Positions 21,482 through 45,568 of a stretch of DNA of 64,000 nucleotides are shown here, piece after piece. The stretch lies in assembly GCA_022592445.1 (NCBI GenBank), contig JABYQR010000267.1, positions 1 to 64,000 of the forward strand. The letters run 5' to 3'. The DNA is from Cytidiella melzeri (Eukaryota; Basidiomycota; Agaricomycetes; Polyporales; Irpicaceae). The position numbers and the translations under genes are program-made. The notes beneath the pieces are model-generated. The model was not told the DNA's origin. It saw only the letters and a program-made list of their open reading frames with translations, and did not search any database. Numbering within the stretch: position 1 is the first letter of the stretch; the number at the start of each line of letters is the position of its first letter.

Positions 21482-22097
21482 ATGCACTTCTTGCCCTCTC
21501 TTGTTTTGTTTGCTGCTGTCACCAGCACATCCTATTCAGTGACTGTGTCTGCCACTCCACATGGCAGCCTTAAAACATTCCATGAGTCAACTCCCTCTGG
21601 CCACTACAACCAATTACAGGAACGGGGTTTGTGGGGAAAGATGTTTGGTGCGCCCCCCGGCTCTGGGTACCAGCAGATTGAATCAAATGCACTGCCTGAG
21701 TACGGGCCCCCAGTTTCTAAGATTGAGGCTCCAGATTTACAAGGTAAAGTTTTTTCAATTTGCATGACATTCATAAGATTGATCTCATGTTGGATCACTT
21801 CCAGCTGCCAAAGAAGCAGCAGCCAGGCTCAGGAAGAAAGGAATTTCACAAGAAAAGTATGGACAGTTATTCAGTCAGACTTACAACGAGGCAACAAAAG
21901 GGCACATATATCTGGGGGAAAACCCATTTTTAAAGGATGTGTCAGTTTTAGTTGCCTACTTTAGAAGCCAATACCCCCGAGAGAATCAGGCGGTTGGCCA
22001 ATCATCTATGTATCGGTCTATGACGATGGGAGCCTCACCATGCCTAACTGAAGAAGGAGAAATCTATCTTGTTAATTGGGGGAAGAAGGTTGTGTAG
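21482..22097 (+). CDS. Small secreted protein, effector-like (unit 1 copy)
   Basis: A predicted 184-aa protein from two exons (21482-21743 and 21805-22097; 61-bp GT-AG intron, phase 1). It has a signal peptide of about 24 residues (MHFLPSLVLFAAVTSTSYSV, then TVSA cleavage-like) and a mature chain rich in polar residues with no Cys pairs of note. It ends YLVNWGKKVV. I recognise no domain. The sequence VSATPHG after the signal peptide resembles VSATPNG in the minus-strand secreted gene of the same unit, which suggests one family. Compared with the unit-2 copy, 25 of 27 differing codons change the amino acid, the signal peptide is unchanged, and the intron differs at 1 of 61 bases. A probable 5'-UTR intron and a TATA box precede it. 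The function is unknown; the selection pattern suggests interaction with a changing partner such as a host or competitor. Confidence 0.82.
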
Positions 22098-22221
22098 ATG
22101 AATTAGATTGATTATAAATTGAAGAGAGATATTGGGTGTAGCAAATGATAATCATGGCAAAGACATTGCAGACAGCTATTGAGAAAACATGACAAGTCAA
22201 AGTGAAACTCAGTATTGAAGG

Positions 22222-22921
22222 TGTTGTGGATGGCCCAACTAGCCCTTTTTGTTTGCCTTTTACCACCTTTGCAACCCCTTTGCAAACCCTTTGCAAACTC
22301 CTTGTACGCTACTAAGTGCCCATATCACATGGCTTAGATGCTCTACATGGTCACATTACTTTGTGCTATGTCACACTGGCATGTGACTCAGCTTATGTAA
22401 TACCACTTGTTACAACCACATGGCTCAGCCCATAGCTAGGGTTTGACATCATAGATACTGTTCACAAGGACTCCTATTGTTCTTTTGCTATTGTTCTCTT
22501 GATGGTAGAGTGTTTTCACGGGTGTGGGAATGGAATACAACAACTGGTAACCTTTTAGATAGATTCTCTCATGAGTAGAAGTCTTGGCAGAGTCCAGACA
22601 ATAACTATTGTTCTCCTTTAGGTAGTTCTATTGTTCTTTGTTCACACGGCTTCTTGCAAAGCCTGCCCTTAACATGGTCTGTGTGCAGGTCCCTGAAGTC
22701 TGTATAAGATGCTGCATGTACGCTCCTAGCCCCTCATCTCAACCTCTTGGTCTTTACTGGGCTAGATAAGCAAACCCCTCCTGTACTACATAGCTGGTAG
22801 TCACAATCTGACTTGGTCTTTACTAGACATCTGCATGAGATTTATAGTTGTTGAAAGTATTGTGCTACACGCCTGCCACCACCTTGTTGTTGTCGACCAC
22901 ATTGTGTCCCTAGTTGCTACA
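22222..22921 (+). repeat. LTR-like repeat, family B
   Basis: A block of about 700 bp from TGTTGTGGATGGCCC to TTGCTACA, repeated at 45569-46274 and, inverted and truncated, at 30931-31426 and 53473-53982. TG...CA ends and internal TATA-like sequence suggest an LTR. No target duplication was found and the right boundary is uncertain. Confidence 0.55.
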
Positions 22922-23052
22922 TCGAGCCCCGTCTCCATGACGGGAGGACAGTGTGGTGCATCACACAGATTTCAACCCTTTGCAAACCTCTTACAATGTC
23001 TGTTTAATACCAATGCATGTCACACTGAGAGTGTGTAGCAATGTTCATGTGT
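22922..23052. other. Repeat spacer with short hairpin
   Basis: Directly after the family-B block lies CCCGTCTCCATGACGGG (6-bp stem, 5-base loop), then GGGAGGACAG, which is purine-rich. The unit-2 copy (48058 onward) has changes in both arms. No gene is seen. Confidence 0.4.
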
Positions 23053-23437
23053 TACAATTCCTGGAGAATGAAGAAGGAGTGTTCCAGTGTGCTCCAGCAC
23101 ATTGATGCCTTTTCAGATGTGACCTTTTTGTCCCCCAAAGTGTGAGAATTGATGGCAGAATACAGACAGTAACAGTCTCAATATCAAATCAATAAATACA
23201 GCTGATGGCATCACATTGGCCTTTTTATCAGCCCTTTATAACTTTGTATCAGATCACTTTTGCAATAAAACTGCAGTGTTTGATTTTTACAGACTGCATA
23301 TGGGTACAAATCTGTCCATAATATACACCATTACTAGAAATTAGATACATGCTTTCATTTAAGATGTAAAACATTTGAATCACATTTTGGACTTCAGGGA
23401 TTGTATCTTGCCACTTGCTGGCCCTACTCTCGCAAGT
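23053..23437 (+). mobile_element. Helentron-like element, short form
   Basis: About 385 bp. The left terminus is TACAATTCCTGGAG; the internal inverted repeat CTTCAGGGATTGTA lies near 23393-23406 and is followed by the hairpin-type tail (TTGCCACTTGCTGGCCC) and a degenerate terminus. The first 250 bp match the 5' part of the copy at 5109. It has the same end structure with most of the interior deleted. The unit-2 counterpart is 48188-48562. Confidence 0.5.
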
Positions 23438-23608
23438 AACTTGGCTTGCTTCCAAACAGCTCCTTTTCCTGGTAGCCTGTCAGGCAGCGTGTTAACCCAG
23501 AATATGATAGCCTAGGCTAAAATTAGCACAGAGTTCAAGTTCTCTCGGAATGCCCCACTCAATTTCTGCCAAAGGTGTGTTCCACCAGAGTGGCATACCA
23601 TGTATATT
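23438..23608. other. Repeat spacer flanking the Helentron-like insertion
   Basis: 171 bp present in both units (48563-48735). It ends TACCATGTATATT, where unit 1 is interrupted by the Helentron-like element and unit 2 is not, so unit 2 gives the empty site. Confidence 0.6.
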
Positions 23609-25748
23609 ACTAGCGTTAGCAAGGCCGGCAAGCGGCAAGTACAATTCCTGAAGATTGAATGAAATACTACTTTTTGAGCCAGATTTGTGAGTAAACTTGG
23701 TGCTGGTAGTAGCCTGAACAAGTAATAATGTTAGGAATGGCTTCTTCAATGAGTAATGTATAGTAAGTTGGTGATTTGTTTCCACTGGAGCACACAATTA
23801 TTCATGAAAGAAGAGGGACCATGCTGTATTGTTTGAAGTGCAACAATGGGTGTAAACACGGAATTAAAACATGTACAAGTTGGTGGAGTAAAGTGTGGAG
23901 ATAAAGATTGTTTGACGTGCGTATTCTTCTTGATGGTGTTGAACTATGTTAGATTTTCTAGATACAATCTGGTAAACTGCAGGAGCAGGGTTGCAAGTGA
24001 TTATGTTATTGATAGCAAATTGAATAAATCATATAGCATGAAATAGTTAATTGCACCTGTGACTTTGTTACCAAAAAGAATCTGAGTAAACAACTCTGTT
24101 CCTGGTAAGGACCTTGCCAAGCCATCTGGTCATGAATACCAACTGTATTACATGCATTTTCTATTGGTGACACCGTTGATAGGCAACTTGATATGGGATA
24201 AAGTGAGTGTACTACAAATGATAAGTCTGGTTGCGGGAAAATAAGCCATAAATTGATGATGGGAGTTACCAATGGTAGCAAGGGGCTTCATATATCTTAT
24301 CATATATCTAGTGCAGTGTTCACTGCTGATGACAGAAAATTGCTTGTGTAAGAAATAAAGGGCTTGAGGATGTCTCATTAGATCAACTCCCACAGCAAGT
24401 TACATGTGTCCTGTGGATGTATGAACTGCCTCATCTCCATTGAAACTGCCACAGGCTGTGTTTTGGTTGTAACTCTTGCTTATAGAGCCACTAGTGGTTG
24501 TGAAACCGTGTGAAAGAATCAAAGGCAGTGCTCTATGGTGATGCAACCACATCCTGTTGATGTCTGAACTGCCTCAGCCCCACTAGAACTGCCTGATGTA
24601 TGAACTGCCTCATCTTCATTGGAAACTGCCACAGGCTGTGTGCTGATTGTAACTCTTGCTTATGTAGCAACTGGTGGTTGTGAAACTTTGTGCAACAATC
24701 AAATGCAGTGCTTGCTGCTGATGCAACTATGTCCTGTTGATGTCTGAACTGCCTCAGCCCCACTAGAACTGCCACAGGCTGTGCTCTGATTGTAACTCCT
24801 CCTTAGAAGGCAACTAATGGTTGTGAAATTTTGTGGACCAATTGAATGCAGTGCTGGCTGCTGATGAAACCATGTCCAGCTAATGTCTGCATTGCCTCAC
24901 CCCCATCAGAGCTGCCACAGGCTATGTTCTGATTTTACCTCCTCCTTAGAGAGCAACTAATGCTTGTGAAACTTTGTGCAACAATCCAATGCAGTGCTTG
25001 CTGCTGATGCAACCATGTACTGTTGATGTCTGAACTGCCTCACCCCCATTGGAACTGCCACAGGCTGTGTTCTGATTGTAATTCCTGCTTAGAGAGCAAG
25101 AGCAACTCACAGTTGTGAAACTTTGTGAAACAATCAGATACAGTACTCACTACTAATGCAGCCACAAATTTACATTGTCCAAGAATGTAGGGATTGACAC
25201 TTTGTAGTTAGCTTCCAAAGTACTGGTAACTCTTGCTCAGAGCCAATACTATGTGTGGCATGTCTTCTGATTGTATTCCTTGTTCAGAGAGCAAGCAATG
25301 TCTGTAGATTGCTGCACATGCACCTGACCAGGATTTGACATCATTTGCCAGCAGGTGTGGAGTTTGAATCTGAGTCTGGATGACTTTTTTCAGTAGACTG
25401 GCCATAACTTGCTCAATTCCACTTCAATTGACAGGATGTTTGTACCAGGATGTTGTCACAAGATAGGGCTATCCAATGGTGTATTATATGTACAGATTTG
25501 TACCCATTTTCAGTAAAAGTCAAAAGGTGCATTTTGATTGCAAAAGTGATCTGATACAAAGTTATAAAGGGCTGATAAGAAGGCCAGTGTGATGCCATCA
25601 GCTGTATTCATTGTTTTGTAATTGACACTGATACTGTCAGTATTCTGCCATCAAATTCCCACACTTTGGACAAAAAGGTCACATCTGAAAAGACATCAAT
25701 GTGCTGGAGCACACTGGAACAATTCTTCTTCATTCTTCAGGAATTGTA
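23609..25748 (-). mobile_element. Helentron-like element, unit-1-specific insertion with minisatellite
   Basis: 2,140 bp in minus orientation. The 3' terminus CTAGT is at 23609-23613 (read on the minus strand), followed inward by the hairpin and the inverted repeat TACAATTCCTGAAG. The 5' terminus lies at 25748. Unit 2 lacks it: the empty site reads GTATATT|ATGAAA at 48728-48741. There is no target duplication and the site is AT. The interior (about 24430-25140) is a tandem repeat of about 145-bp units, each with GAACTGCCTCA, GCCACAGGCTGTG, GTTGTGAAACTTTGTG and CAGTGCTTGCTGCTGATGC. Confidence 0.65.
24430..25140. repeat. Minisatellite inside the Helentron-like element
   Basis: About five imperfect copies of a unit of roughly 145 bp. 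Related copies lie at 5760-6120, 29140-30120 and 52000-52680, all inside elements of the same family. Internal tandem repeats are a known trait of Helentron-associated non-autonomous elements. Confidence 0.7.
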
Positions 25749-25765
25749 ATGAAACCTGTATGAGT

Positions 25766-26235
25766 ACTAGCAGTGCAAACAGGGGCAGTGCAAATGATTA
25801 AAGTAGCTACCCAACACTAAACACTGCGTATGGGCACATGAGCAGTGCAAAATGTAGGAAACAGGCTGTACAAATGGAGAAAACAAAGATCAATTAAACA
25901 TAGCTGCACACTATAAAACATTGATGAAAGCATGAGCAGTGCAAAACAGAGGCAGTACAAATGCTTGAGTTAGCTATGCGGCATGAAAACTTGCATATGG
26001 ATGCATGAGCAACCATAGGGAACAGTCTCTATAAGTGGAGATACAAAGATCAAACAAGCATAGCTGGAACCTTATCAAATCTGTCTGAGTACATAAGCAG
26101 TGCAAAACAAAAACCATACAATTGGTTGAGGTAGCTATGCAGCATTAAAACTGTGTATGGGTGCATGAGCAGTGCAAAATGTACAAAAGAGGCTGTACAA
26201 GTGGAGGAAACAAAGATGAAACACACATAGCCTCA
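25766..26235. repeat. Minisatellite with period about 160 bp, three copies
   Basis: Repeated blocks contain ATGAGCAGTGCAAAA, GGCTGTACAA and GGAGAAAACAAAGAT. Unit 1 has three copies and unit 2 (48750-49060) has two, so copy number changed after the duplication. Confidence 0.65.
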
Positions 26236-26439
26236 AGATAAATGTAAACAGTTGCCTGCAGGTGTTGGTGTTCCAAACTTTCTACATGCATATTATTTCA
26301 GAACACCATTGAATACAGGTATAGTACTGTATTGTATTTAATGGTACTTGTGCTCTAAAATGTTCTGCACAAGAGAGTAATGAATGGGAATTCAATGATA
26401 TTCTGAGATGATATTGCATTGTCATGGTATTTGTGAATC

Positions 26440-27486
26440 AGAACACAGCCTGTGGCAGTTTCAATGGGAATGAGGCAGTTCAGACATCAACAGGACACAT
26501 GTAACATGTTTTGGGAGTTGATCTAATGAGACACCCTCAAGCCATTATCCTTGAAGCAAGTAGTTTTCTGGCATCAGCAGTGAACACTGCACAAGATTGA
26601 TGATACCATTGGTGACTACCTTCATCAATGTATGGCTCTTTTTCCCACAACCAAACTTATTGACTGTAGTAAAGTCACTCTATGCCAAATCAAGTTACTT
26701 ATCAAAGTTTTCTGTTGTTATTTTAGGTTTGCCACCTCAATTTTATTTGTATCCGCTTGTTCCCGCCGCCCACCTTTTGTCATTCCGCACGGATTACTTG
26801 TTTAGACATTCTCTTTTTGTCTTATCCATTCTACTAAAATCACATAAAAACCTTGCATTTTTGTATCTACTCAATAACATTGTGTTCATCTTCTCGAGAC
26901 CCCCTCCCGTGTGCGCATCAAAACCCTGAAAAAACAACAGTGTCACCAGTAGACAATGCCCTTACTACAGTTGATACTCATGACCAAATTGGTTGGCAAG
27001 GCTTTTGCCAGGAACAAAGTTGTTTACTGAGGTTCTTTTTGATAACAAAGTCACTGGTCCAAGTAGCTATTTCATGCTATATGACTTATTCAATTTGCTA
27101 TCAGTAATATAATTACTTGTAACCCTGCTCCTGCAGTTGACCCCAAATGTATCTAGATTATTCACTTTCACAAAGAAGACACACATCAAGCAAACTTTAC
27201 CGCTACACTCTACTGCACAAACTTGTTTGAATTCTGTACTCACACCCGGCATTGCACATGAAACAATACAACACAGTCCTTCTTCTTTCCTAAATTACTG
27301 CATGCTCCAGTGAAGACAAACCACAAACTCATCGTACATTATTCATTGATGAAGCTATTCACAACAAAATGGCTTAGTCAAGCTGCTACCAGCAGCAAGT
27401 TTATTTACAAATCTGGCTCAAAAAGTAACATCTCATTCAATCTTCAGGTACTGTACTTGCCACTTGCCAGCCTTGCTAATGCTAGT
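26440..27486 (+). mobile_element. Helentron-like element, 5'-truncated copy
   Basis: It shares the right 1 kb of the family (ACTACCTTCATCAATG, CATGCTATATGA) and ends with the inverted repeat, the tail TTGCCACTTGCCAGCC and CTAGT at 27482-27486. The left boundary is not clear. A 229-bp MITE is nested at 26712-26940. The unit-2 copy is 49250-50313. Confidence 0.5.
26712..26940. mobile_element. MITE with CTGTTGTT terminal inverted repeats
   Basis: 229 bp, ends CTGTTGTTATTTT and AAAAAACAACAG. It is absent from the same position of the sister elements at 6350 and 52925. In unit 2 (49539-49767) it is flanked by TGT on both sides, a 3-bp target duplication; in unit 1 the left copy has mutated to TTT. 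No coding capacity. Confidence 0.65.
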
Positions 27487-27820
27487 ACCATGCTGTTGAC
27501 ACAAAGACATGATTGCACATTGGTAGATGCTTGTGGAAGTCCATTAAACTATTTAATCTCTATTCCTCAGGAAATGTAGCTTGGCAGAACATAGAGCAGC
27601 AGCTACTTAAGGGGATACATGCAAAATACACCAATGATTTGTGGTCTACTTATTGTGATGATATTCAGGTTTGGATTGTCTGCATTCACAGGTGAGGAAT
27701 ATTTGAAGAATATGTGACATTTTACATACCTGGGTCTGAACATCCTTTGCCACATGAGCACCAAAGGACATTTTGTAGCCATTGTCGCGAAGGAATTTGA
27801 TGTAGTGATACATGCCCTTG

Positions 27821-28156
27821 TTACTTCTTTGCACGCTTTTTACCTTGGACCTTTGGAAGAACATGGTCCCATGCTTTTTGAATATCTGCCTCCGGAAGCA
27901 TTGAGCGGATTGATGCATATATGGTGTGAGCTGTTTCAAACGAAATGTTAGTATCAAGGTTATCAAGGTTGTCCATGGGGGCTTTGGGATTCATCCGCAA
28001 TGTATGTCCTGTCAACTCTAATTCTCTCCTCTGTGTGATCAAGCTGTTGAAGCTGGAGGAGGTTGGATAGCCATTAGGAGTGGCAGACACAATCATTGCA
28101 TAAGATGCACTGAGGACAATGGTTGCAAACCAAATGAGAGAGTTTGATATTCTCAT
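27821..28156 (-). pseudogene. Small secreted protein, frameshifted copy (unit 1)
   Basis: It begins MRISNSLIWFATIVLSASYA with a predicted signal peptide ending near IVSA, then TPNGYPTSSSF. Relative to the unit-2 copy it lacks 4 bases near 27837 (GGTAAAAAGC against GGTAATAAAAAAAGC). That shifts the frame and ends the protein after KKRAKK at 111 residues, losing the GMYHYIKFLRDNGYKM segment that is still recognisable downstream (to about 27690). The rest of the coding region differs from unit 2 by six amino-acid changes. It may encode a shortened secreted peptide or be dead. Confidence 0.7.
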
Positions 28157-28700
28157 GACAGTGGAAGCCGACAGAAGATTTTGCTTAGACGGCTAGTGGC
28201 TATAAGCACAAGTTCAATACAGCAGCCCAAGGCAAGGGAGACACAAACAAACAAAGTCCTTACTAACCAGTAATGACAAGTTGAGAGGAATTAGTTGCTT
28301 AGGGAGGGGTGGATGCACTGTTTTAAACCCACTGTGGACTGTAAGGACCTAGTACACAGGGAGACAAGTTATTTCAGGTGCAATAAAGAGAGCACAATAG
28401 TGAATATAGGATGTATATAGTACACACAGAGACTAGTTAACTAGGTAGCAAGGCATATGAGTATACAACAGAGTGCAAGAGTAATGGGGGGAATACTCAC
28501 TCCAGGTGCAATAAAGAGAGCCCAATGGAGGAGTAACGAACCAGGGCAAAGGGGTTATATACTACAAAAAAATTGCAACCAGGCAATGTTTGTGTGATGA
28601 AACAAAGGATGTAATCATGATACAGGAGGGTCATGAGACAGGAGACAAATGAATGTCCAATAGGGGAAGAGTCCATGAGTAGTGCCACATAACTCCATTA
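28157..28700 (-). promoter_or_regulatory. Upstream region of the minus-strand secreted gene, shared with a transposase-like ORF
   Basis: Read on the minus strand, this region resembles 60090-60500, which lies upstream of the FAR1/MULE-like ORF at 60524. Shared blocks include CACCTGGAGTGAGTATTCCC (a probable 5'-UTR intron donor), TTGTAGTATATAACCC-type TATA sequence and GTGCTCTCTTTATTGCACC. It suggests a common mobile origin of the promoter. The unit-2 copy is 50989-51530. Confidence 0.5.
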
Positions 28701-30930
28701 AATGGTGCTGAAGTAAGTTGAGGTACAAGAATAGTGGCAACAGGCTTTATATATTTTTTGTTGCATGTCCAATCATTGCATAAATGCACTTTTAAAGTTT
28801 TTACAGACAGCATATGTACACAAATCTGTACATATTGAACACCATTGGATAGCCATATCTTGTGGAAACATTCTGGTACAAAAATCCTGTCGATTGAAGT
28901 GAAATTGAGCAAGTACTGGGGAAAGTCACTCAGACTTAGACTCAAACTCCACTCTTGCTGGCGCGTCATGTCAAATTCTGGTCAGGTACATATACAGCAA
29001 TCTACAGACATTGCTTGCTCTCTGAGCAAGGAATATAATCAGAACACATGTCACAAATATTATTGGCTCTGAGCAAGAATTACCAATACTTTGGGAGCTA
29101 ACAAAATATTCTCAACCCCTACATTCTTGGACAATTGAATTTGTGGTTGCATCAGCAGGGAGCACTGCATTTGATTGTTCCACAAAGTTTCACCACCATT
29201 GGTGGCTCTCTAAACAGTAGTTACAATTAGAACACAATCTGTGGCAGTGCCAATAGGGTGATGCAGCTCAGACATCAACAGGACATGGTTGCATCAGCAG
29301 CAACCACTGCGTCGGATTGTTGTGCAAAGTTTCACAGCCATGAGTTGCTCTCTAAGGAGGAATTAAAATCAGAACATAGCCTGTGGCAGTTCTAATGGGG
29401 CTGAAGCAGTCAAGACATAAACAGGATGTGGTTGCATCAGCATAAAGCACTGCCTTTGATTATTCCATACAGTTTCACAATCACCAGTTGCTCTATAAGC
29501 AGGAGGTACAATCTGAACACAGTTTGTGGCAGCTCTGATGGGGGTGAGGTAGCACAGATATCAGGTGGAAGTGGTTTCATCACCAGCCAGCACTGCATTC
29601 AGGTGGAAGTGGTTTCATCACCAGCCAGCACTGCATTCAATTGGTCCACAAAGTTTCACAACCACTGAGTTCCAAGCAGGAGTGACAGCTGTGGCAATTT
29701 GTATGTGGATGAGGCAGTTCAGACATCAACAGTGCATGGTTGCATTGGCAGCAAGCACTGCATTCAATTGGTTCACAAGGTTTCACAACCACTACTCTCT
29801 ATGCAGAAGTTACAATCAAAACACAATCTGTGGCAGTTCCAATAGGGGTGATGCAGCTCTAACATCAACAGAACATGGTTGCATCAGCCACAACCACCGT
29901 GTCGCATTGTTGCACAAAGTTTCACAACCATGAGTTGCTCTCTAAGGAGGAATCAAAATCAGAACATAGCCTGTGGCAGTTTTAATGGGGCTGAAGCAGT
30001 TCAGACATCAACAGGATGTGGTTTCATCAGCATAAAGCACTGCCTTTCATTATTCCATACAGTTTCACAATTACCAGTTGCTCTATAAGCAGGAGTTACA
30101 ATCAGAACACAGCCTGTGGCATCTCCAATGGGGGTGAGGCAGTGCAGACATCAACAGGACACATGTAACATGTTCTAGCAATTGATCTAATGAGACACCC
30201 TTAAGCCCTTCATTCTTGAAGCAAGTAATGTTCTAGAATCAGCAGTCAGCACTGCACAAGATTAATGACAAGATAGATGAAGCCCCTTCCCACCATTGGT
30301 GACTACCTTCATCAATGTATGGCTCCTTTTCCTGAAATCAAACTTATCAATTAGTACAGTTACTGTATCCCGGATCAAGTTGCCTATCAAAGGTGTCACC
30401 AATAGCAAATGCCCATAATACAGTCAATATTCATGACCGGATAGCTTGGCAAGATCCTTACCAGGAACACAGTTGTTTACTTGGGTTGTTTTTGGTAACA
30501 AAGTCACAGGTGGAATTGACTACTTCACGCTATTAGATTTATCCAATTTGCTATCAATAACATAATCACCTGTAACCCTGCTCTGGCAGTTTACCAAGTT
30601 TTATCTCAATTATCTAATATAGTTACATGTCAAACAATCTTTAACTCCATGCTCTACTCCACAAACTTGTTTTATTTCTGTGCTCACAACCATTGTTGCA
30701 CTTCAAACAATACAGCACAGTCCCTCTTCTTTCATGAACAATTGTGTGCTCCAGTGAAGACAAACCACCAACTTACTAAACATCACTCATTGAAGAAGCT
30801 ATTCACAACAAAATTACTTGTTCAGGCTGCTACCAGCACCAAGTTTACTCACAAATCTGGCTCAAAAAGTAATATTTCATTCAATCTTCAGTAATTGTAC
30901 TTGCTGCTTGCCAGCCTTGCTAACACTAGT
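28700..30930 (+). mobile_element. Helentron-like element, long copy (unit 1)
   Basis: It shares the family's interior (GTACAAATCTGTAC-type start region, about 145-bp minisatellite at 29140-30120, ACTACCTTCATCAATG) and the right end (TTCAGTAATTGTACTTGC, then CTAGT at 30926-30930). The left end has diverged. The right flank is family-B LTR sequence, so it inserted into that repeat at TCTAT|ATAAG, again an AT site. The unit-2 copy ends at 53472. Confidence 0.6.
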
Positions 30931-31426
30931 ATAGACTTCAGGGACCTGCGCACAGACCAGGTTAAGGGCAGGCTTTGCAAGAAGCCGTGTGAACGAAGAA
31001 CAAAAGAACTACCTAAAGGAGAACAATAGCTATTGTCTAGACTTTGCCAAGAACTCTACTCGTGAGAGAATCTATCTAAAAGGAGACCAACTATTGTATT
31101 CCATTCCCACACCTGTGAGAACATTCTTCCATAAAGAGAACAATAGGGAAAGAACAAAAGCAGTTCATGTGAATGGTATCTGTGACATCAAACCCTAGCT
31201 ATGGGCTGAGCCATGTGGTCTTACTTAAGCTGAGTCACATGCCAGTGTGACGTAGTAGCAAGTAACGTGACGATGTAGAGCGTCTAAGCCACGTGATACG
31301 GGGGCTTAATAGACGTGCCAGGGGTTTGTGCAAAGAGAATTGCAACTGGGTTGTAGCCCGGAGTTTTACAGATAGAAACAAGAGGTAAAATGCAAAAAAT
31401 AAGGGCTAGTCGGGCCATCCACGACA
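30931..31426 (-). repeat. Family-B LTR-like repeat, inverted and truncated
   Basis: Reverse complement of the first part of the repeat at 22222-22921, cut on the left by the Helentron-like element and ending at the TG terminus (CCATCCACGACA). The unit-2 copy is 53473-53982. Confidence 0.65.
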
Positions 31427-31622
31427 CATTCTCTATTCAGTAGTATTAGCATGCAGGACTGTGCGTTACCAATCCTTACTCATATGACATTGCTGTAGCA
31501 TTAATAATCTAGTTACAGACATGTATATATACCGCTCCTAGAGAGCAGAGAAATAACAAGACACTTACTCCCAGAGTTAGTTGACCTTTCAAGTCATCCC
31601 CTACACTTGTAACTTTCAGACA
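31427..31622 (+). repeat. Family-A LTR fragment
   Basis: The last 196 bp of the LTR in the same sense as 61854-62376 (CATTCTCTATTCAG to TTTCAGACA), including the TATATATA box. It abuts the family-B terminus directly. The unit-2 copy is 53983-54178. Confidence 0.75.
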
Positions 31623-32877
31623 AGCTGACTCGATGTTCCCCTTCTGTACCTGAGAATTTGATGAGTTAAAACAATGGTGCGGGTTTCAAAGACAGACGGC
31701 AACAAACTAACAACAAATATGTTGAAAGGCAGGGTTGTGTGCGCTGCTAAGACCTAACAACGCTGTCAGACCTCTGAGTACCTAAGGTGCAAAGGAAGAG
31801 GACACAATGATAATATAACTGTACCTAAGACACGAGCGTCAAGCGAGTGAGCTAAGTACAGGGTCAGCATATGTACATACTGCAAATGCAAGAGAGACAA
31901 GCTTACCCCAAGGTGCAAAGGAAGAGAGCACAATGGGGAAAAAGAGAGGAATGAGTGAACTCTTATAGTACAACGAGAGACAGCTCAATAAGAAAATGAT
32001 AATCAAGAAGGTGTTGCAGAGCAACTGCTGCTAGACTGATAAACCCTCAACAAGGGTGGAGTAGAGGTGGGTGGAAGTGGAAAGAGATCTTCAACAATGA
32101 CAACGAGGTCAAAGTTGATGATAAGCAGGCAAGCAGGCACAGAGGCCGGATACTGGCAGTGCAAATGACGAAGTTAATATCAGACTTATACTAGGTTACA
32201 TTGAGTAACTCACCTGGCAGTGCACATGATGAAGAGGTGAAGATGCAGAACCAGGGAGGGTAAGCGGTACTATATATACTGTGTTTGGATGGTCTGTGCG
32301 CAAGTTCCCACACTAGGGACTGGAGTAACTGTTGGGCTGGAGTAACAATAGGACAATAAAGGACCAGGGTAACAATCAGGGACCAGGGTATGTAGAACAA
32401 TAAAACTAGAACAATAGAACAGGAATAATAGAACAATAGAAACTGGGGGAATCCCTGGGGAATCCCTAGCAATAGACAGAAAACAACAGACAGAAGACAA
32501 TAGGACAATAAGAACTGGGGAAATTCCTGACAATAGAAGGGGAACAATAGAACAATAGCCTAGGTTGATCTGGAACCGCTCCAGATTGAGTCTAGGGTAT
32601 GGGTCTGGACTATTGATAAATAAGGCAGGATGTCACATGACCCGGGTTAGGGTTAGGTCTGGTAACACTCCTAGCCAGAAAATAAGCGCTCTAGATAGGC
32701 ACCTAATGCTATAAAATTGTGACAATGTTGGAAAAATCCGGTCTCTGTTGGACTATCCATGTCAGGAGGCTGTGTCCGCGGGAATGAGGCTACACTAACA
32801 TGTGATTCATATAGAAAGAGAACAATGAAAAGAACAAGGTAACCTTGTCCGTGAGCGAGAGCTGGACATATCAATAC
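31623..32877 (-). repeat. Copia-like LTR region (family D) and simple repeats
   Basis: Ends on the right at TATTGATATGTCC (minus strand) next to a polypurine tract (GCTGAGGGGGAG), so the right part is probably a copia-type 3' LTR whose first bases mutated from TG to TA. It contains a run rich in GAACAATAGA-type units (32395-32560) and a TATATATA box near 32270. The left part includes the repeat also found at 1670-1870. No gene is supported. Confidence 0.5.
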
Positions 32878-32951
32878 TCCCCCTCAGCGAGCTGAAACGG
32901 TGCAAGTCCGAGTGCTTTTGTATGGCGTACATGGACTTCAGCAGGCAGAGG

Positions 32952-33442
32952 TGTTTGAAAGTTACGAGTGTAGGGGATGACCTGGAAGGTCAACTAACTC
33001 TGGAGTAAGTGTCTTATTATTTCTCTGCTCTTCTAGGAGCGGTATATATACATGTCTGTAACTAGATTACTAATGCTACAGTAATGTCATATGAGTAAGG
33101 ATTGGTAATGCACAGTCCTGCTTGCTAATACTACTGAATAGAGAATGTAAGCGATGACTGAGCATCCTACATAACTGAATGGTGCTGACTGAGCCTTTAG
33201 TAAGCTCAATACATTTGGTATATGAAATATGAGTCATGCAGAAGCCTCATGGTACTTCTGCTATTCAGTCATGGAAACTACTGGAACACGATGCAATAAG
33301 GTGCAAGTATTGCATCGTGTGTGGCCATAATGATGATGGAATCACATGATATGTACTATCTGATCTTATCTATCTACATATCTAATCTACATTGTCTATA
33401 GATCTGATCTCCGATAATCAGCGATACAATCTCGCTTTGACA
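32952..33442 (-). repeat. LTR, family A (short form), unit 1
   Basis: 491 bp, TG...CA. No PBS or PPT adjoins it and the flanking 5-mers (AGAGG, CAGCT) differ, so it is an old solo LTR or a recombination product. The unit-2 copy is 55551-56042 (about 2% different by hand). Confidence 0.85.
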
Positions 33443-33791
33443 CAGCTCTTGCATTTGCATAGCCATCTTCTGGTCCAACCGAGAGGAACGACGCGTTCCG
33501 GGACCGTACCGCTGCATGCTGGCTTGGATGACGAGAAGGTGAGGGTGCGTGAGCATGTGAATCACGGCTCGTAACGTAGAGACAAGGAGACGTGGGACCA
33601 TATGTTGCTGTAGGGAAGGACTGCGCTCTGTCGACTCCGGAACATACATCAGTGACGATCACCCATGTAATACAACTGCAAGTGTCTGTACACAATGAAT
33701 AGATGACAATAGTACAGCTGCCATCCCTAATATACATCGTCAAGAAGGTTTGCTACTCCAACAAACCTTGCTTTTGTTTATTCTAGAGCAA
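33443..33791. other. 3' flank of the large array gene
   Basis: 349 bp between the solo LTR and the stop codon of the large minus-strand gene. No gene is supported; it should include that gene's 3' UTR. Confidence 0.5.
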
Positions 33792-36589
33792 TCACCTCAT
33801 GAGCCTACACCACGAGCCTCCCTCTGAGACTGGATCATCGGCGTGCGGAATCTCCGGGGGTGTGATCTTCAGAACGAGACGAGTCTCGCCATGCACAGAC
33901 TTTCCGGGATTGTGGAGGGCGTGGTACACACGTCGGAATTCCGACCAAGGCGCATGGAGCGAGAAAGCAAAGATGGCATGCTCATCCCGGGCAGCAACAA
34001 GAGCCTCGAGTCTCTCCTTGAACCTCGCCCACTTCTCCTCTCCGTCGGGAAGAGTCAACGCGGCTTGGCGAAGGAGCGGGTCGTTGCGACGTAGAATGCG
34101 ATTCGCGCGCCCGAGCCACGGTTGTTCGCCGTCGTCGCCGAGAAGTAAGACAGCTTCGGCTTCTCCTTCGTCTTCGAGTATTTGGAGGACTGCGCCTTCG
34201 TGTTTGAGGATCGGTTCGTTTTTCTCGTCGACTTCCCCGGCTTTGAGGAGAGCTTGATAGAGCTTCTCCCGAAGCGGCTGGCCATTTTTCGTGATCGAGC
34301 CTTCGTAGTACATCTGGTCGAGGCGCGCGAGGAGAAGGGCGCCTTTACCGCGTGTGCTGCTAGCAGCGTTACCACGTTTAGTATAAATCTCGTCGATGCG
34401 CTCTTCGGTCTGCCCAGTCTGTCAGAGAATGCATGCGACTACCCAGTGGCATGTATACACTCACGTAAGGACCATGATAACCCGACTCGTGATCCATGTA
34501 ACGCAGGATTTGCGCGCCTCCAATGCCGATGCCGTCGACGCCAGAATACACCGCGGCAGGAATATGCTCGAACTTGAATCCGGCCGACATGTACGTGGTG
34601 AGTCCGACGGAATGAGCTTCATGCACAAACTCCAAGCAGTTTTGGAAGCCCAGCTGGTCGATAAGACATTTGCTCGGATAGTCGTCGCTCGCGCCATCCA
34701 CAGTGACCTTGTCGAAGCCGCCGAGCGCAGCAAGCTCCACGGCCCGCAGCGCGATGTACCGCCGAATCGTTTGCAATTCTGAGAGGTTCCCTTGTGTCGG
34801 ACGAGGCACTTCAATGATCACGGGTTGCTCCCTGATTCGAAGAGTACCATCTTGTGCTTTTTCGAGGTCGTCCACAAACGTGCTATTCAGGTTGAATGCG
34901 GCAGAGAGGTACTGTCGGTGGTTGCGCAGTGCGTTCCCTGCGAGAGCATGCATGTATTTCACCATTTGGGACGTGTGCAACCCGTCCAACGCGATCTTGC
35001 ACTCCGCCGCTCCCAGCTGGAATATCCCCGTAGTGGTGGCAGAGATGGTTCCGACGAGCTTGACAAAGTCTTTCTCGAATTGGCCGTCAGTGCTGTCGCG
35101 GAACGGACGGCCGATGAAGATTGTGTTTGGAGACGTGTCGCCGGTGTGCAGACGGACGCGGGCAAAGTCGAGTGTGGACGGGATGCGGTACGACTCGATG
35201 GCAGCGCGACCTTGGCCAGCCGGCCGCTCGAGATCTGAATGTGGGTGGTGAGTCGCGGACATCGTCAATATTGAAGTTTATCAGACAACGTACGCTCGAC
35301 ATGAACGATGGCGCCCTTCATCCAGCGCCGCTTGCGGGTGGTGCCAAATACGTGTCCATCGCCGGGGTCAGTCATGCTGCAGTAGGTCTGAGTGTCCCGA
35401 CGGAAACCGACTGTGCCCAGGAAGCAGGCTTTGAACGGATCGAATGGGTTCAGGCCTTGGGAAAGCATATAATATCCGACGTGAAATGCCTGAGCCCAAA
35501 GACGTTACGCGTGATACATCATGCTTATGAGAACTTTCACTCACAACGTAGTCGGCGAAAGTAGGATTTCTCTTTTCGATGCGAAGCTGAGCTATGATTG
35601 CTGAGATGGCGGGTAAGAAGTGGTCTCCGAATCGGCTGGGCCACTTGATCGACAGACGATCCTGCGTTGGGTCGGTGACAATGGAGAAGTAGGACAGAGG
35701 CAGAGGTCCATCTTCTGTTTCTTGCTCTTGGTTCTTCGCGGCGTTTGGGCCCTGGTGATCGTCGCCTTCGGCTACGCGAAGCATGTTTTGTTGTCGCAAG
35801 AACAAAAACGGGAGATAAGACTTACTAGGCATTGCAAAATAATCTTCCGCACGTTCTTTGACAAAGTAAGCTGGGTAATCTGCGATGAGGTGGGTGAGGG
35901 CCATGACATTGAAGCTCTGCGCCTCGCCCAGTGCAGACTCGACATCGGCCACGGTCGCCGCATCGATTAGTCCTCTCACGGCGTCCATGCCGATATTGGT
36001 TATTTCAGATGTTTCGCCAAATAACTCTACGATAACCAATTTGAACGTGTCAACCAGCTCGCTGTCGTGAACGAGGGAGACTAGAAAACGCTTGAGCGAA
36101 GGATATGATGAGAGATAGGAGCAGACTACTCACAATAGGGCAGAGGCAAGTCATGTTTGAAGTCGCCCACCTTGACGAAGTCAGCCTTCCACTCTGAATG
36201 CAATTTCCTTCTCAGTACCAATTGGTGAAACAATGTGAGGGGGTTTTATGTAACTTACTCGTGACGCGGAGGAGAAAAACAATGTTCTGCATGAGAGAGA
36301 TTGCGGCGCTGCGAAACGTGCCGGTGTGGATTCTGAGCTCTTTGAGGTCTGGCACCAGAGCCTCAGTGTGTTGGCCGGTGTTGATCAACCCGGGCTGGAA
36401 GTTGATCGCTCGAGAGGGAATACTGGGAAGGATTGAGATGTCGCGGTCGCCGACAGGAAAGTCGACATTGGCGAGACTGAGAGTGGTAGCTGCGATGAAC
36501 TCCAAACTTTGGTTGCCAGCAGAATATGCGACTCTGGCGACGCCAGGACCTTGTTCCTTGGCCTTGATTTGAGGTAGACGGGTGAACAT
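33792..36589 (-). CDS. Large conserved protein with a TIM-barrel-like C-terminal part (unit 1)
   Basis: A multi-exon gene, about 850 aa. Start ATG is at 36589 (MFTRLPQIKAKEQG), stop at 33792 (WCRLMR). The first exon ends near LLRVT; then come exons with KADFVKVGDFKHDLPLPY, LIDAATVADVESALGEAQ and SIKWPSRFGDHFLPAI. Next are GYYMLSQGLNPFDPFKA and RRDTQTYCSMTDPGDG, a long exon at about 35240-34460, and a last exon with ILEDEGEAEAVLLLGDDGEQ and AIFAFSLHAPWSEFRR. The segment EFVHEAHSVGLTTYMSAGFK, then FEHIP and GVDGIGIGG, recalls the AG-K-EHIP region of the archaeal MfnB/DUF556 TIM-barrel enzymes; this is from memory and tentative. No signal peptide or membrane segment is seen. It is nearly identical to the unit-2 copy, introns included. 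The function is unknown. Confidence 0.75.
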
Positions 36590-37203
36590 GGTTTGAGGGT
36601 GAGCAGGGTATGGACAGGTAGGGAAGGACTTGATAGGTAGGGCGATACGAAGGGTTTAAGTAGGAAACCTGCCTGGGTATGCTGCACTGTGCGGACGTGG
36701 AGCATGATTGTACCCCAGAAGACATGAGGTCGGTAGAGCTGTCGAAGTGGCTCAAGGGAGAGTTTGCGCGAGGAGGAACGATGTGCGATTTGGAGTTGCG
36801 AGACGTTCTTGTGACTAACCTGCTGTCCATTGAACATTCAATGAAGAAACTAGAGCAGCCTAGCCAGGAGTTCCAGTCAGGTGTACCGAGACTCGATATC
36901 ATCTCACTTTGCGCAGCTGGACATAGTGCGACTCCAGGGTTGGAAGTATTGAGGTACGCGTTGACCTACCGCCGGCACCACTTGTGCAGCTACTCCATCC
37001 TGAGTTCCGGCACCCATAGGACGACGGCGTTGGCAGCCACCATCACGCACCGAGGCAGCCGTCTTCGGTTCTTGTAAGCCTACGTATAGTCAAGTTCAGC
37101 ACGACAATGCTTTGAGCTTTTCCAACACGCACCACACACCCTAGAATATGTATCAATCATCCCGCCTCTACCACGCCCTTTGTTCATTTGCCTGCCAGCC
37201 TGC
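36590..37203. other. Upstream region of the large array gene, up to the unit junction
   Basis: Promoter side of the large gene. Open frames here (for example on the plus strand around 36680-37076) read antisense through the promoter and carry no recognisable motif. The region ends at the unit junction CTGCCAGCCTGCCA, where the Plavaka element is inserted. Confidence 0.45.
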
Positions 37204-37683
37204 CACATCAGGGAATCCGGAATTCGATAATATTAGAAAATCTTCGGCGAGTAGCTGTTCTTACCATTTTTCATCCATTTTTATGTGGAGTATCAGGAGT
37301 AGTACGAGTATGGTCAGTTTTCAGAGTAGCCAAAAATAAATTGCCTCCTACTCCGGCGGCGCTATTCTCAGATATTTCAGACATATTCTATAATTAAAAT
37401 CGAGAAAATCAGCGAAGTATTTGCATATCATCTCAACATTCCTATAGGATAGTGGACATTCCGCGCAACTTTGAACAGGGATCAAGGGCAAAAGACGAGG
37501 TTTAAGGTTTGATATGCAAGCAAGGGTGTAATGTATTGATACGGCAGCGCGACAAGGTACTATCATATTTTAACGCTATCACATCTCCAATCTTTACTCA
37601 TCCATGGCATCCAAGTCCACCAGAGCTGCAGTGTCGACATTTGCGGCCGGATTCTTGCCGCGCCTATTGTTGGATGTTAGCAC

Positions 37684-39925: not shown

Positions 39926-40184
39926 GCTGGACGATATTTGAGGGCTGGATGAGTTGAGTTTCAACGATTTGAGGTGAGGATGAGCAATGCGAGAGATGGA
40001 TGCGCGCAATGAAGAGCTGATAGACTTGGAGTGGACAGGGGGCAGAGCGAACGTTTTGGAACCCTAAAAAAAAACATTCAAACTAGACAGATCAGCGGAG
40101 TGACTTGAATTTGAAAAACTGAGATCACGGGACCGCGACGAATCGACTTGCGTGCTCGCTGTTCTCGCTCTTCCGCTCTACAGA
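39926..40184. promoter_or_regulatory. Divergent promoter region inside the Plavaka transposon
   Basis: 259 bp between the start codons of the DUF6532-like gene (-) and the transposase (+). It includes an A-run (AAAAAAAAAC near 40067). I see no clear TATA box. Confidence 0.5.
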
Positions 40185-43100: not shown

Positions 43101-43447
43101 GACGTGTCCGGCTTGTGTTCTCGCTCCCTCCGGCGGCCCGTCGACTTTTGTTCACGCACGAGAGCGCAGTACCAACACAGCTGGCGTATGTTGAATGGTA
43201 CACAAAACTACGACCCCGACCTGAAGCCGACCATCTCTTATACAAAATCTCGCCGTTGGTTGATGACCGCGGTGATCCGATTTGTAGCATTGTTGCGGTG
43301 AAGGACATTCGTCAAAGTGCTCATTTGTTCCCAAAATTTGGTCCATCCGCTCCTTCTGAGTGGACGAGCTCTAATGTTCTAGACCTATGCCAGACTTTCT
43401 ATATTAATTCCTTCAGTAACAAGTTCATGTATCGGACAATGTATTAA
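40185..43447 (+). pseudogene. Plavaka-family transposase, broken
   Basis: Exon 1 (40185-40949) begins MPRQCPACQLPFSK with a CxxC...H-type finger and an acidic region. Exon 2 starts at 41001 (VPESLGLSFRTSDELNEKID) and contains hallmark stretches: RRMYHDMHTGRWWWATQ, PIIISTDKTQLTLFRNK, YLTIGNIPKEIRRKPSSRA, FACFVGDYPEQILVALGYTG and RSITPDVLHQLYQGIVKHL. Near 42110 the frame shifts by one base. At 42326-42328 a TGA interrupts ALLDDALA*FHGDKQVFVDL. The reading then continues through FNTEYTERLHIDFTKDAYRS and MTVWLERREKVHRHAQF, an intron at about 43029-43088, and a last exon to 43447. One frameshift and one stop make this copy probably inactive. The family transposase cuts and pastes the element at its CATCAGG ends. 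Confidence 0.85.
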
Positions 43448-43863
43448 CATATTTTACTCCCTATTGGCTGATATTACCTCAATAATTCTGGCTACCGACA
43501 ATGTCACCTACATATTTCTCGCAACTCTCAGATACTTACCCATATTCATGTTATAACACAATATTTATGCTACTCGCGCTCTTTTAGCATAATTATCCCG
43601 AATTATCAGATTCCGTATTTCCTGATGCACTCGAGTTCGGTGTAACATGGAATTGCACCTTGAGAGCAGTACAACGGGGAGACTTGAAGTGTCAACAGTT
43701 GCGACTCGCGTGAACACAACTCTTCGAGAGGGGACAGCGGCATTGTCTCATCGACGCATGGTTTAGGAGTTCAGCGTTGGGTGTGGCTGCGACGAGACAG
43801 GGACAAAAAACTTGATAGGAGACAGGACTCACACCAAACATGTTTGAAATCTGGATACTGTTA

Positions 43864-44501
43864 CAGCTAGTTTCAAAAATATAGGCGGGTGCTCACAAAT
43901 CTCACGCAGTCGGACCACGACGGAGTACGTCAATTATTGGTCGGAGCTGTCTGGCATTGCAGTGCCGTGCGTCCTTCGGCGGGGCCAGAACAGTCGGCGA
44001 CTTCGGATTGTCACCCAAACACTGGGTAACCACGGCCCAATTTCCGGTGGAAAAACATGAGAAATACGTGAGAAAAAATGGCGATTTTACAGTACCTTTT
44101 TGTAGCAGAAATAGCGCCGAAAAACACTGAATATTTCATCTTGTTTTTCTTGTGAGCGAATGGATGAAAAAGTGGCTTTTTTCTCAATGCGTTTTTCCAG
44201 CCTTTTGGTTTCTGTTGAAAATACCATTGAGAAACGCTCCGTTTAGGCATCACCAAAAGGCCGGAAAAACGCATTGAGAAAAAAGCCACTTTTTCATCCA
44301 TTCGCTCACAAGAAAAACAAGATGAAATATTCAGTGTTTTTCGGCGCTATTTCTGCTACAAAAAGGTACCGTAAAATCGCCATTTTTTCTCACGTATTTC
44401 TCATGTTTTTCCACCGGAAATTGGGCCGTGGTTACCCAGTGAAACCACAGTCCGCCTATGCACGTTTTAGACGCGCCCGTCTGTCAATTTGGAAGTTGCT
44501 G
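43864..44501. mobile_element. Tc1/mariner-type MITE, host of a nested MITE
   Basis: Present only in unit 2. Ends are imperfect inverted repeats (CAGCTAGTTTCAAAAAT on the left; CAGCAACTTCCAAATTG read from the right) flanked by TA on both sides (43862-43863 and 44502-44503). Without the nested element (and one copy of its TSD) it is about 213 bp and non-coding. TA target and CAG ends fit Tc1/mariner-like elements. Confidence 0.65.
44020..44441. mobile_element. CACTG foldback MITE (CACTA/EnSpm-like)
   Basis: 422 bp consisting of two inverted arms of about 185 bp around a centre of about 50 bp. The ends are CACTGGGTAACCACGG and CCGTGGTTACCCAGTG, flanked by AAA on both sides (3-bp target duplication). 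CACT(A/G) ends with a 3-bp duplication indicate the CACTA group. The arms are almost perfectly complementary, so transcripts would form a long hairpin. Confidence 0.8.
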
Positions 44502-44830
44502 TATCATGACGGACGTCGCATTATTGACCATCAAAAACAGCATCTCTGCTGTGCGAGTGGCACTGTTCGTTGCCTCAGCACTGCACCGGCACCATAAGAT
44601 GTATAAAGTCCTCTCACAACCATCCCTGCACCTCACTACAGCCATCCTCTTACCTTTTCAGCACACCTCTTCTGCTCCAGGTCATTCCATTGCTTCAGTG
44701 CTGGTCGGTAAGTGTATCAGTGTATTTGCCTCACGCAACGCTGTGCTGAGACTGTTCTTGCAGCAAGCTGTTTTGTTTAGTATCTTCTCACACCCTTCAC
44801 CACCTTTCAACATCCTATACTGCCAGTGTC

Positions 44831-45446
44831 ATGCACTTCTTGCCCTCTCTTGTTTTGTTTGCTGCTGTCACCAGCACATCCTATTCAGTGACTGTGTCTG
44901 CCACCCCACATGGCAGCCATGAAACATTCCATGAGTCAACTCCCTCTGGCCACTACAACCACTTGCAGGAACGGGGTTTCTGGAGAAAGATGTTTGGTGT
45001 GCCCCCCAGCTCTGGGTACCAGAAGATTGAATCAAATGCACCGCCTGAGTACGGGCCCCCAGTTTCTAAGATTGAGGCTCCAGATTTACAAGGTAAAGTT
45101 TTTTCAGTTTGCATGACATTCATAAGATTGATCTCATGTTGGATCACTTCCAGCTGCCAAAGAAGCAGCAGCCAGGCTCAGGAAGCAAGGAATTTCACAA
45201 GAAAACTATGGAAAGTTATTCCGTCAGACTTACGATGAGGCAACAAAAGGGCACATATATCAGGGGGAAAGCCCATTTTTAAAGGATGTGTCAGTTTTAG
45301 TTGCCTACTTTAGAAGCCATTACCCCCGAGAGAATCAGGTGGATGGCCAATCATATATGTATTGGTCTATGATGATGGGAGCCTCACCATGCCTAAATGA
45401 CAAAGGAGAAATCTATCTTGTTAATTGGGGGAAGAAGGTTGTGTAG
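44831..45446 (+). CDS. Small secreted protein, effector-like (unit 2 copy)
   Basis: 184 aa from exons 44831-45092 and 45154-45446, with intron and reading frame identical in layout to 21482-22097. The signal peptide is unchanged. The mature chain differs at 25 positions, for example G to R, L to P, S to R, L to Q, V to D, S to Y, R to W and E to K. Only two codons differ silently. The upstream TATA box, 5'-UTR intron and flanks are retained, so it should be expressed and processed the same way. The replacements are scattered over the whole mature chain. Confidence 0.82.
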
Positions 45447-45568
45447 ATGAATTAGATTGATTATAGATTAGAGAGATATTGCGTGTAGCAAATGATAATC
45501 ATGACAAAGACATTGCAGACAGCTATTGAGAAAACATGACAAGTCAAAGTGAAACTCAGTATTGAAGG

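Follow-up and report, generated by a model that had tools for sequence, protein, structure and literature searches.

Conotoxins constitute a prepropeptide toxin superfamily, the MAX effectors are built on a beta-sandwich fold, and the KEPs are Kex2-processed repeat proteins of fungi. According to PMC4029134, spider hexatoxins combine a conserved signal peptide, a faster-evolving mature part and many paralogues with a pro-region that ends in a dibasic site, while PMC4624222 presents the fungal MAX effectors as small secreted proteins of very different sequences that may have one fold in common. The superfamily described below, to which two genes (copies A and B) of Cytidiella melzeri belong, resembles these systems in several of the above respects, as well as the nematode HYP effectors, secreted proteins in which conserved parts flank a variable domain and for which rearrangement bound to the locus is suspected.

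Copies A and B lie in the window, i.e., the whole stretch of 64,000 nucleotides that was analysed. Each of them is 616 bases in length, encodes 184 amino acids, and has the identical layout of exon 1 (262 bases), intron (61 bases) and exon 2 (293 bases). Their proteins are found in public databases as BC835DRAFT_1383002 and BC835DRAFT_1383010 of C. melzeri (identity of 100%, and 86% for the second). The features of the two loci are as follows:

21159..37206, no strand: segmental duplication, arm 1; collinear blocks, about 94–95% identity
21253..21258, + strand: TATAAA of copy A inside the conserved upstream region, by sequence reading; TATA-like block kept across 140 aligned upstream regions
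21359..21414, + strand: predicted 5'UTR intron of copy A (GTAAG...TATAG), by sequence reading; splice-like ends kept across 140 loci
21482..21743, + strand: exon 1 of copy A, signal peptide (codons 1–25, 21482–21556) and pro-like region
21744..21804, + strand: 61-base coding intron of copy A; differs at one base from B and at 4/60 from the C521 copy
21805..22097, + strand: exon 2 of copy A including stop; codes for most of the predicted helical domain
44509..59814, no strand: segmental duplication, arm 2
44602..44607, + strand: TATAAA of copy B, by sequence reading
44708..44763, + strand: predicted 5'UTR intron of copy B (GTAAG...TGCAG), by sequence reading and family pattern
44831..45092, + strand: exon 1 of copy B
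45093..45153, + strand: coding intron of copy B
45154..45446, + strand: exon 2 of copy B including stop

The codon counts given by the sequence-only reading proved exact on recount: 28 bases in 27 codons are changed between A and B, and 25 of these codons are replacements, while two (codons 25 and 45) are silent; codon 115 was hit twice. As had been claimed, each of the 16 changed codons in exon 2 replaces its amino acid. The signal peptide, said to be unchanged, is indeed identical in its amino acids, though a single silent base differs in codon 25. The difference of 1/61 bases in the coding intron was confirmed as well, but this count is without power on its own. Copy A matched no Pfam family, in line with the reported absence of a known domain.

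The same reading had proposed strong positive selection, and the direction of the proposal stands. By the NG86 method, the whole gene has dN of 0.061 and dS of 0.025, and the part past the signal peptide has dN of 0.072 and dS of 0.019, with a Fisher p-value of 0.057 (uncorrected, one of 13 pairs tested). Among the single-hit codons past codon 26 in well-aligned stretches, 24 are replacements and one is silent, while 26% were expected to be silent (one-sided p = 0.005). The noncoding parts of the segmental duplication are 3.4–5.1% diverged; replacement sites (25/365) exceed all flanks (459/12,026; p = 0.006) but not clearly the nearest ones (54/1143; p = 0.14). As many A/B differences were found in 42 of 212 equal-length overlapping noncoding windows, although some of the listed high-difference windows are located at alignment-block starts or among repeats. 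The neighbour-gene control within the duplication gave pN of 0.0032 and pS of 0.0112 over four ORFs, which is a rough estimate, as at least one of the four may be a noncoding frame and divergence is lower at this end of the duplication. Because the pair sits in a segmental duplication with such noncoding divergence, and because of the p-value of 0.057, A and B alone are weaker evidence for selection than first claimed, suggestive rather than decisive.

Combined genome searches revealed that A and B are members of a superfamily whose roughly 201 loci are dispersed over 161 contigs of C. melzeri; the reversed query matched nothing in the same genome. It escaped the sequence-only reading that the pair is part of a family of about 200 genes, and that the coding part seems to have been replaced outright in some relatives. 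The promoter and 5'UTR, including the TATA region and the splice-like intron ends, are kept across the 140 loci of the upstream alignment. The parts common to the members are the TATA region, the 5'UTR, in which an intron is predicted, a hydrophobic signal peptide and a pro-region that often terminates in KR. The KR (Kex2-like) site is present at residues 41–85 in 68 of 105 members (18 expected), RK in only 11, and past residue 85 KR sites average 0.28 per protein. Over 135 loci, pN is lower than pS in the signal peptide and pro-region (NG86 omega of 0.51, 0.83 and 0.66, the first being that of the signal peptide). The third codon positions of the pro-region are more conserved than the first and second ones, a pattern that was rejected as proof of positive selection because of this pN/pS result.

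The family counts (KR and composition, open frame, profiles, motifs) exclude L094 (identical to L093), copy B and L057, and the 135-locus estimate additionally excludes L039 and frames shorter than 60 aa; the retrieved sequences cover all but about 58 of the 201 loci. L015 and L068 are without an in-frame ATG. One-intron gene models, A and B included, account for 23 of 141, by a crude rule and with several looking doubtful, and 12 of 118 single-ORF models are shorter than 110 aa, some members being short or interrupted. Annotated relatives among the matches listed (2, 5 and 6 of 96, 4,935 and 3,435 candidates) amount to nine distinct proteins, all from C. melzeri; these protein searches used a limited number of exact words, and unannotated genes would escape them. 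The family was not found among the best matches listed in the literature on Cytidiella melzeri, on Cytidiella secreted proteins or genomes, on Irpicaceae effectors and on broader topics. The superfamily seems to be largely unannotated in public records.

The C-terminal part is hypervariable, poor in Cys (0.5%) and rich in Trp (2.7%) across 105 members, 51 of which have no Cys past the signal peptide. It is open in frame in 105 of 105, and the other two frames are open in 3 and 2 of them, a contrast that only partly shows the strength of choice, since the members were preselected for an open frame of at least 110 aa. An earlier profile test, which included part of the pro-region, did not extend from copy A and L017 to the family. 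When it was repeated without the pro-region, the third seed of the earlier test ceased to grow. Iterated profiles from three seeds collected 53, 48 and 52 of 122 C-terminal parts, with at most one of 610 shuffled sequences picked up in any round; a fourth seed stalled at four members. These profiles demonstrate that about half of the predicted C-terminal parts are recognisably one domain. A Pfam scan of 86 members yielded 12 families, each in one member (E-values of 0.005–0.09), none shared and none above the curated cut-off. No sequence match to the domain was found in the PDB (best E-value, 0.58), and structural comparison with VIA-align gave no clear match. The A/B replacements in two predicted helices lie opposite the hydrophobic moment (179 and −177 degrees), with a combined p-value of 0.026 for clustering on one face.

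Two comparisons with further relatives strengthen the claim that coding sequence has diverged faster than noncoding sequence. Against a third copy (C521), the mature exons differ at 101/360 sites and the noncoding parts at 25/290 (p = 1.6 × 10−10); between A and C521, coding divergence is three times the noncoding one, and the 61-base intron is kept between two diverged exons. The C521 copy contains an in-frame stop. In a second young pair, L010–L016, omega is 2.4 (p = 0.02, one of 13 pairs), replacement sites reach 12.8% versus 4.1% in the 3' flank (p = 9 × 10−5), and 33 of 35 single-hit changes are replacements. These comparisons demonstrate that in some young cases the predicted coding sequence past the signal peptide is more diverged than intron, UTRs and flanks. 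Several results count against the reading preferred below, among them the pN/pS values of the signal peptide and pro-region, the stop in C521, the profile seeds that did not extend to the family and the donor searches for L011 and L012 described below. Silent sites also exceed noncoding ones between A and C521 (p = 0.003), an excess not expected from selection on replacements alone. Omega is below 1 in 7 of 13 pairs, with p < 0.05 in four of those seven (L018–L019 and L057–L058 being trimmed to their first 108 and 74 codons), and 14 pairs pooled give an omega of 1.00 and an exactly neutral silent share. Other relatives do have ordinary silent/replacement ratios, an outcome that the sequence-only reading had itself named as one that would refute its claim.

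Divergent coding islands between similar flanks were observed in four comparisons (L010–L012, L010–L011, L062–L099 and A/B–C521). Between L010 and L011, similarity ends at +179, just past KR, and returns downstream; between L010 and L012, it is absent from +322 to +646, adjoining the stop; the L010–L016 alignment holds downstream of −47 and is absent upstream. Such alignments establish that, in some comparisons, the predicted coding part has lost any remaining similarity between flanks that are still alike. In genome searches for donors, the C-terminal DNA of L011 matched only L011, that of L012 matched itself and short stretches of 42–50 bases in L010, L016 and itself, and that of L010 matched only itself and L016. 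Renewal restricted to the locus, whereby the stretch from the pro-region to about the stop would be replaced or rewritten as a cassette, with promoter, intron, signal peptide and 3' flank staying in place, is a tentative and on the whole unlikely possibility. If true, a fungus that is not a parasite would possess a secreted repertoire that generates diversity, with a logic comparable to that of nematode HYP editing.

The reading that we favor, as moderately likely, is that the members are interaction proteins which are secreted and processed by Kex2, and which owe their diversity to duplication, to positive selection of uneven strength and probably to the replacement of cassettes. In the sequence, the common 5' unit leads into a hypervariable C-terminal part, which is kept open. 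The protein would be exported, a Kex2-type protease would cleave it at KR, and the small helical domain thereby released may act on a changing extracellular target. The changing partner that the sequence-only reading proposed for the A and B proteins is likewise inferred. Other organisms met in wood, i.e., fungi, bacteria or fungivores, would be the most likely target. Duplication would supply the copies, uneven positive selection on exposed residues together with in-frame indels would diversify them, and recombination or conversion probably installs entire new C-terminal parts.

It is somewhat unlikely that recombination or conversion is mainly responsible in place of selection, with the 5' unit being homogenised or rejoined to other C-terminal parts, so that coding sequence older than its flanks looks fast. 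The loss and return of similarity in L010–L011 and the gap in L010–L012, the upstream boundary in L010–L016 and the raised silent sites of A–C521 are all in its favor; yet conversion does not predict nearly all changes to be replacements (24/25 in A/B, 33/35 in L010–L016), the conserved A–C521 intron lies between diverged exons, and donors for the C-terminal parts of L011 and L012 were not found. Relaxed constraint, i.e., a repeat-like family drifting without function, its 5' unit being common through recent spread only, would agree with the pooled omega, the closeness of A/B coding divergence to that of the nearest flanks, the short models and the stop in C521. This explanation is nevertheless highly improbable in view of the 105 single frames open over at least 110 aa, the signal peptide omega, the KR excess and the threefold coding divergence of A–C521. 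Signal peptide, small size, hypervariable domain and many copies recall effector superfamilies, and the proteins might act on plants during an undescribed living-plant phase. We regard this as quite improbable: C. melzeri is a wood decayer, RxLR was found in 5 of 123 members (1.8 expected), never followed by an EER-like run, [YFW]xC shortly behind the signal peptide is not enriched (2/123 versus 4.4 expected), and LxLFLAK is absent.

The common 5' unit makes the whole set simple to retrieve, and how hypervariability arises can be tested directly on natural duplicates whose flanks are clean. If the favored reading of secreted interaction proteins is true, about 200 genes of a wood decomposer encode a secreted repertoire that varies like venoms or parasite effectors, and arms-race secretomes extend beyond parasites. 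Compared with KEPs, the members are likewise secretory precursors containing KR sites, but repeated peptide units are absent in 122 of 123, the KR sites past residue 85 are scarce, and no repeats separated by Kex2 sites were found among the 123. Unlike HYPs, which occur as single-gene loci with numerous alleles and arrays of motifs, the C. melzeri genes occupy about 200 dispersed loci; rearranged motif arrays were not found, an internal exact repeat of at least 8 residues being present in 1 of 123 members. Unlike the MAX fold, the domain is predicted to be mostly helical. Compared with the toxin superfamilies, the fungal family has no conserved cysteine framework, its C-terminal part is larger, and the dibasic site is not present in every member. 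The toxin-type pattern of a signal peptide more conserved than the mature part is present. In having an export signal and promoter in common while varying wildly in the part that would act outside, the members follow a pattern for which venom toxins and parasite effectors are the best-known examples.

Copies A and B, both on the forward strand and encoding 184 aa each, are found on contig C187, of which the window represents bases 1–64000 (assembly, 49.7 Mb in 731 contigs). The databases list their predicted products for Cytidiella melzeri (Polyporales, Irpicaceae) as hypothetical proteins BC835DRAFT_1383002 and BC835DRAFT_1383010. This species is a wood-decaying saprotroph. Both genes lie in a segmental duplication, and the following features were identified in and around it.

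Features of the window
21482–22097, forward strand: copy A
44831–45446, forward strand: copy B
21159–37206 and 44509–59814: arms of the segmental duplication (15–16 kb; collinear blocks, ~94–95% identity)
33792–36965 and 56400–59573: second gene region on both arms, read as four ORFs
3996–7855, minus strand: Copia-like retrotransposon pieces (integrase, gag-pre-integrase)
10921–14716: NLR-like fungal gene, with an NTPase frame of the NACHT/NPHP3 type and, after it, a WD40-repeat frame
40974–42137: Plavaka transposase frame, between copies A and B
43865–44508: stretch of 644 bases adjoining copy B, with no counterpart at the corresponding position beside copy A
44020–44209 and 44252–44441: arms of the near-perfect inverted repeat within this stretch (190 nt, 99% complementary), a foldback-like element at least ~320 bases upstream of the copy B start codon
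46532–46896: C/T-rich tandem array directly downstream of copy B (3 copies, period 128)
62477–63943: Ty3-like gag frame
5720–6118, 24594–25099, 29142–30161 and 52334–52671: tandem units of 143 bases

The sequence-only reading had counted 27 differing codons between A and B, 25 of them replacements, and had claimed strong diversifying selection. The count was exact on recount, and the excess of replacements stands; as for its strength, the pair by itself is suggestive evidence for selection, not proof. Past the signal peptide, dN/dS is 3.9 (p = 0.057), and codons with one differing base comprise 24 replacements and 1 silent change (one-sided p = 0.005). Noncoding divergence between the arms is 3.7% on the 5' side and 5.1% on the 3' side, then 4.4% and 3.4% further out. 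Replacement sites past the signal peptide (25/365) do not differ significantly from the nearest flanks (54/1143; p = 0.14) and exceed all flanks taken together (459/12026; p = 0.006), while 42 of 212 overlapping noncoding windows of the same length are equally divergent. The four ORFs of the second gene region, a rough control with few changes, gave pN 0.003 and pS 0.011; one of these ORFs has a sub-threshold match to 4-HFC-P synthase.

When copy A was used as a DNA query against the genome, 42 matches were obtained, mostly limited to about the first 86 bases, that is, the signal peptide. A consensus prepro protein yielded at least 150 matches (the best 150 of 367 candidates; every E-value ≤ 5 × 10−6), 149 of which lacked a stop inside the matched stretch, and a second consensus likewise at least 150 (the best 150 of 320; E-values up to 3 × 10−4); the reversed consensus had no matches in the genome. 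Together, the protein and DNA searches define 201 loci, spread over 161 contigs; from the two protein searches, capture-recapture estimates 212. The retrieved loci yielded 141 anchored starts, 139 of them having an in-frame ATG; these 139 together with A and B make up 141 gene models, 118 with a single frame and 23 with one guessed or known intron. After removal of three redundant or shifted models, 105 single frames of at least 110 aa (median, 156) remained, and 12 others were shorter. That the C-terminal part of these 105 is open in the coding frame follows from how they were chosen; the remaining two frames are open in just 3 and 2. Two loci on contig C278 (L093 and L094), ~9 kb apart in opposite orientation, are identical in the coding and compared flanking regions, representing either a very recent duplication or an assembly duplicate. 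L057 and L058 (contigs C594 and C679) are near-identical in the 5' region and 3' flank, and the frame of L057 diverges shortly past KR; either L057 is broken or the assembly is wrong there.

In 140 loci, the sequence preceding the ATG includes a common TATA region and 5'UTR, together with UTR-intron ends resembling splice sites; the mean major-base frequency is 0.70–0.76 in the last 213 alignment columns. The signal peptide consensus (135 loci), MQFSTSLVLFAAIVTGTFHTVTVSA, is followed by a pro-region. For these loci, the signal peptide has an omega of 0.51 and the pro-region has values of 0.83 and 0.66. KR occurs within residues 41–85 in 68 of 105 members (18 expected by shuffling) and RK in 11; this orientation preference suits Kex2-type cleavage, and, judging by sequence, family members are probably cleaved at KR.

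From residue 71 onward (n = 105), Cys accounts for 0.5% and Trp for 2.7% of residues, and 90% of members have at least one Trp; a second membrane-like stretch was found in just 2 of 123. Out of 122 members, iterated profiles of the post-KR part gathered 53, 48 and 52 with three of the seeds and 4 with the fourth, and at most 1 of 610 shuffled sequences matched in any round; the consensus includes YEELW and EEKAMW. A and B carry the common 5' unit, yet stayed outside these groups. A Pfam scan of 86 members revealed no family common to them, a PDB sequence search gave nothing significant (best E-value, 0.58), and a limited second look by structural comparison gave no clear match. Copy A was modelled by AlphaFold from nine sequences (mean pLDDT, 64; pTM, 0.54), and confidence is moderate from about residue 70.

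Predicted secondary structure of copy A (AlphaFold model)
Helices: residues 86–99, 103–118, 128–143, 155–161
Strands: residues 165–168, 174–178

For the A/B REPLACEMENTS, the replaced residues lie 179 degrees off the hydrophobic moment in helix 103–118 (n = 4) and −177 degrees off in helix 155–161 (n = 3); tests for one-face clustering give p = 0.069 and 0.20, respectively (combined, 0.026). From residue 84, helices contain 53 of the 101 residues and 9 of the 16 replacements. In this model of moderate quality, such placement would suit a conserved core with a changing surface; core constraint alone is also expected to produce it.

Replacement divergence was compared among relatives in 13 pairs.

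Omega past the signal peptide
Below 1: L049-L051 0.79; L062-L099 0.61; L010-L012 0.65; L029-L037 0.63; L112-L121 0.54; L103-L105 0.98; L052-L055 0.70
Above 1: A-B 3.89; L010-L016 2.43; L065-L135 1.35; L018-L019 1.34; L030-L098 1.07

Omega is below 1 in seven pairs (four with p < 0.05) and above 1 in five, one pair having too few changes; the p values are uncorrected and distant pairs poorly aligned. Pooled over well-aligned stretches of 14 pairs, a filter biased against replacements, single-hit codons comprise 166 replacements and 60 silent changes, exactly the neutral share of 0.265. The seven pairs and the neutral pool count against faster replacement divergence in relatives. On the other side, L010-L016 has dN 0.140 and dS 0.057 (p = 0.02), 33 replacement and 2 silent single-hit codons (one-sided p = 0.001), and 12.8% divergence at replacement sites versus 11/270 (4.1%) in the 3' flank (p = 9 × 10−5). 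The third copy, on contig C521, differs from A at 10/110 positions of the 5'UTR, 3/81 of the signal peptide, 22/97 of remaining exon 1, 4/60 of the coding intron, 79/263 of exon 2 and 11/120 of the 3'UTR. Mature exons (101/360) thus exceed noncoding sequence (25/290; p = 1.6 × 10−10; against B, p = 1.5 × 10−9). Over 114 gap-free codons, dN is 0.365 and dS 0.253 (difference, p = 0.25), against 0.092 for noncoding sequence; replacement sites exceed the latter (p = 6 × 10−10). Silent sites exceed it as well (p = 0.003), which may partly reflect inflation of NG86 counts by multiply hit codons. Single-hit codons include 35 replacements and 9 silent changes. Coding gaps are of 6, 78, 3, 6 and 3 bases plus an 11/16 pair summing to 27; with one in-frame stop, this copy may be dead.

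Divergent islands between similar flanks were observed in four comparisons from three subclades (L010-L012, L010-L011, L062-L099 and A/B-C521). L010 and L012, on different contigs, share 91% identity over 933 bp (−590 to +322) and 93% over 781 bp (+646 to +1419), with only short repeat matches in between; the last base of the L010 stop codon is +654. Measured in 60-base steps, identity ranges over 0.87–1.00 upstream, 0.43–0.53 from +360 to the stop and 0.85–1.00 downstream. For L010 and L011, which are on the same contig, identity is 94.9% over 1814 bp ending at +179 (codon 60), directly past KR, and likeness returns at +646 in L010 but not before +815 in L011, beyond its stop. L062-L099 shows a comparable pattern at lower identity. 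Other pairs behave differently: L049-L051 is uniform, and L103-L105, L030-L098 and L018-L019 diverge on the 3' side too. Since selection for replacements alone should keep silent sites flank-like, it is likely that in L010-L012 and L010-L011 the C-terminal part was exchanged or the flanks were kept alike by conversion; a search of the genome for a donor of the L011 and L012 C-terminal parts found none.

Small domains in about 200 copies, putatively secreted and surface-variable and probably processed by a Kex2-type protease, have the features of interaction proteins that face changing demands. For these putative interaction proteins, antagonism among organisms in wood is put first because of the lifestyle of the fungus and because the tested effector motifs are absent or rare among members. 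The best matches in the literature on Cytidiella, on secreted proteins and effectors of Irpicaceae and more widely included no paper on the ~201-locus family. Closest in logic are prepropeptide toxins (PMC4029134), whose cysteine framework is missing here, and nematode HYP effectors (PMC11228951), whereas the present family consists of many loci without motif repeats; the family thus lacks defining features of both.
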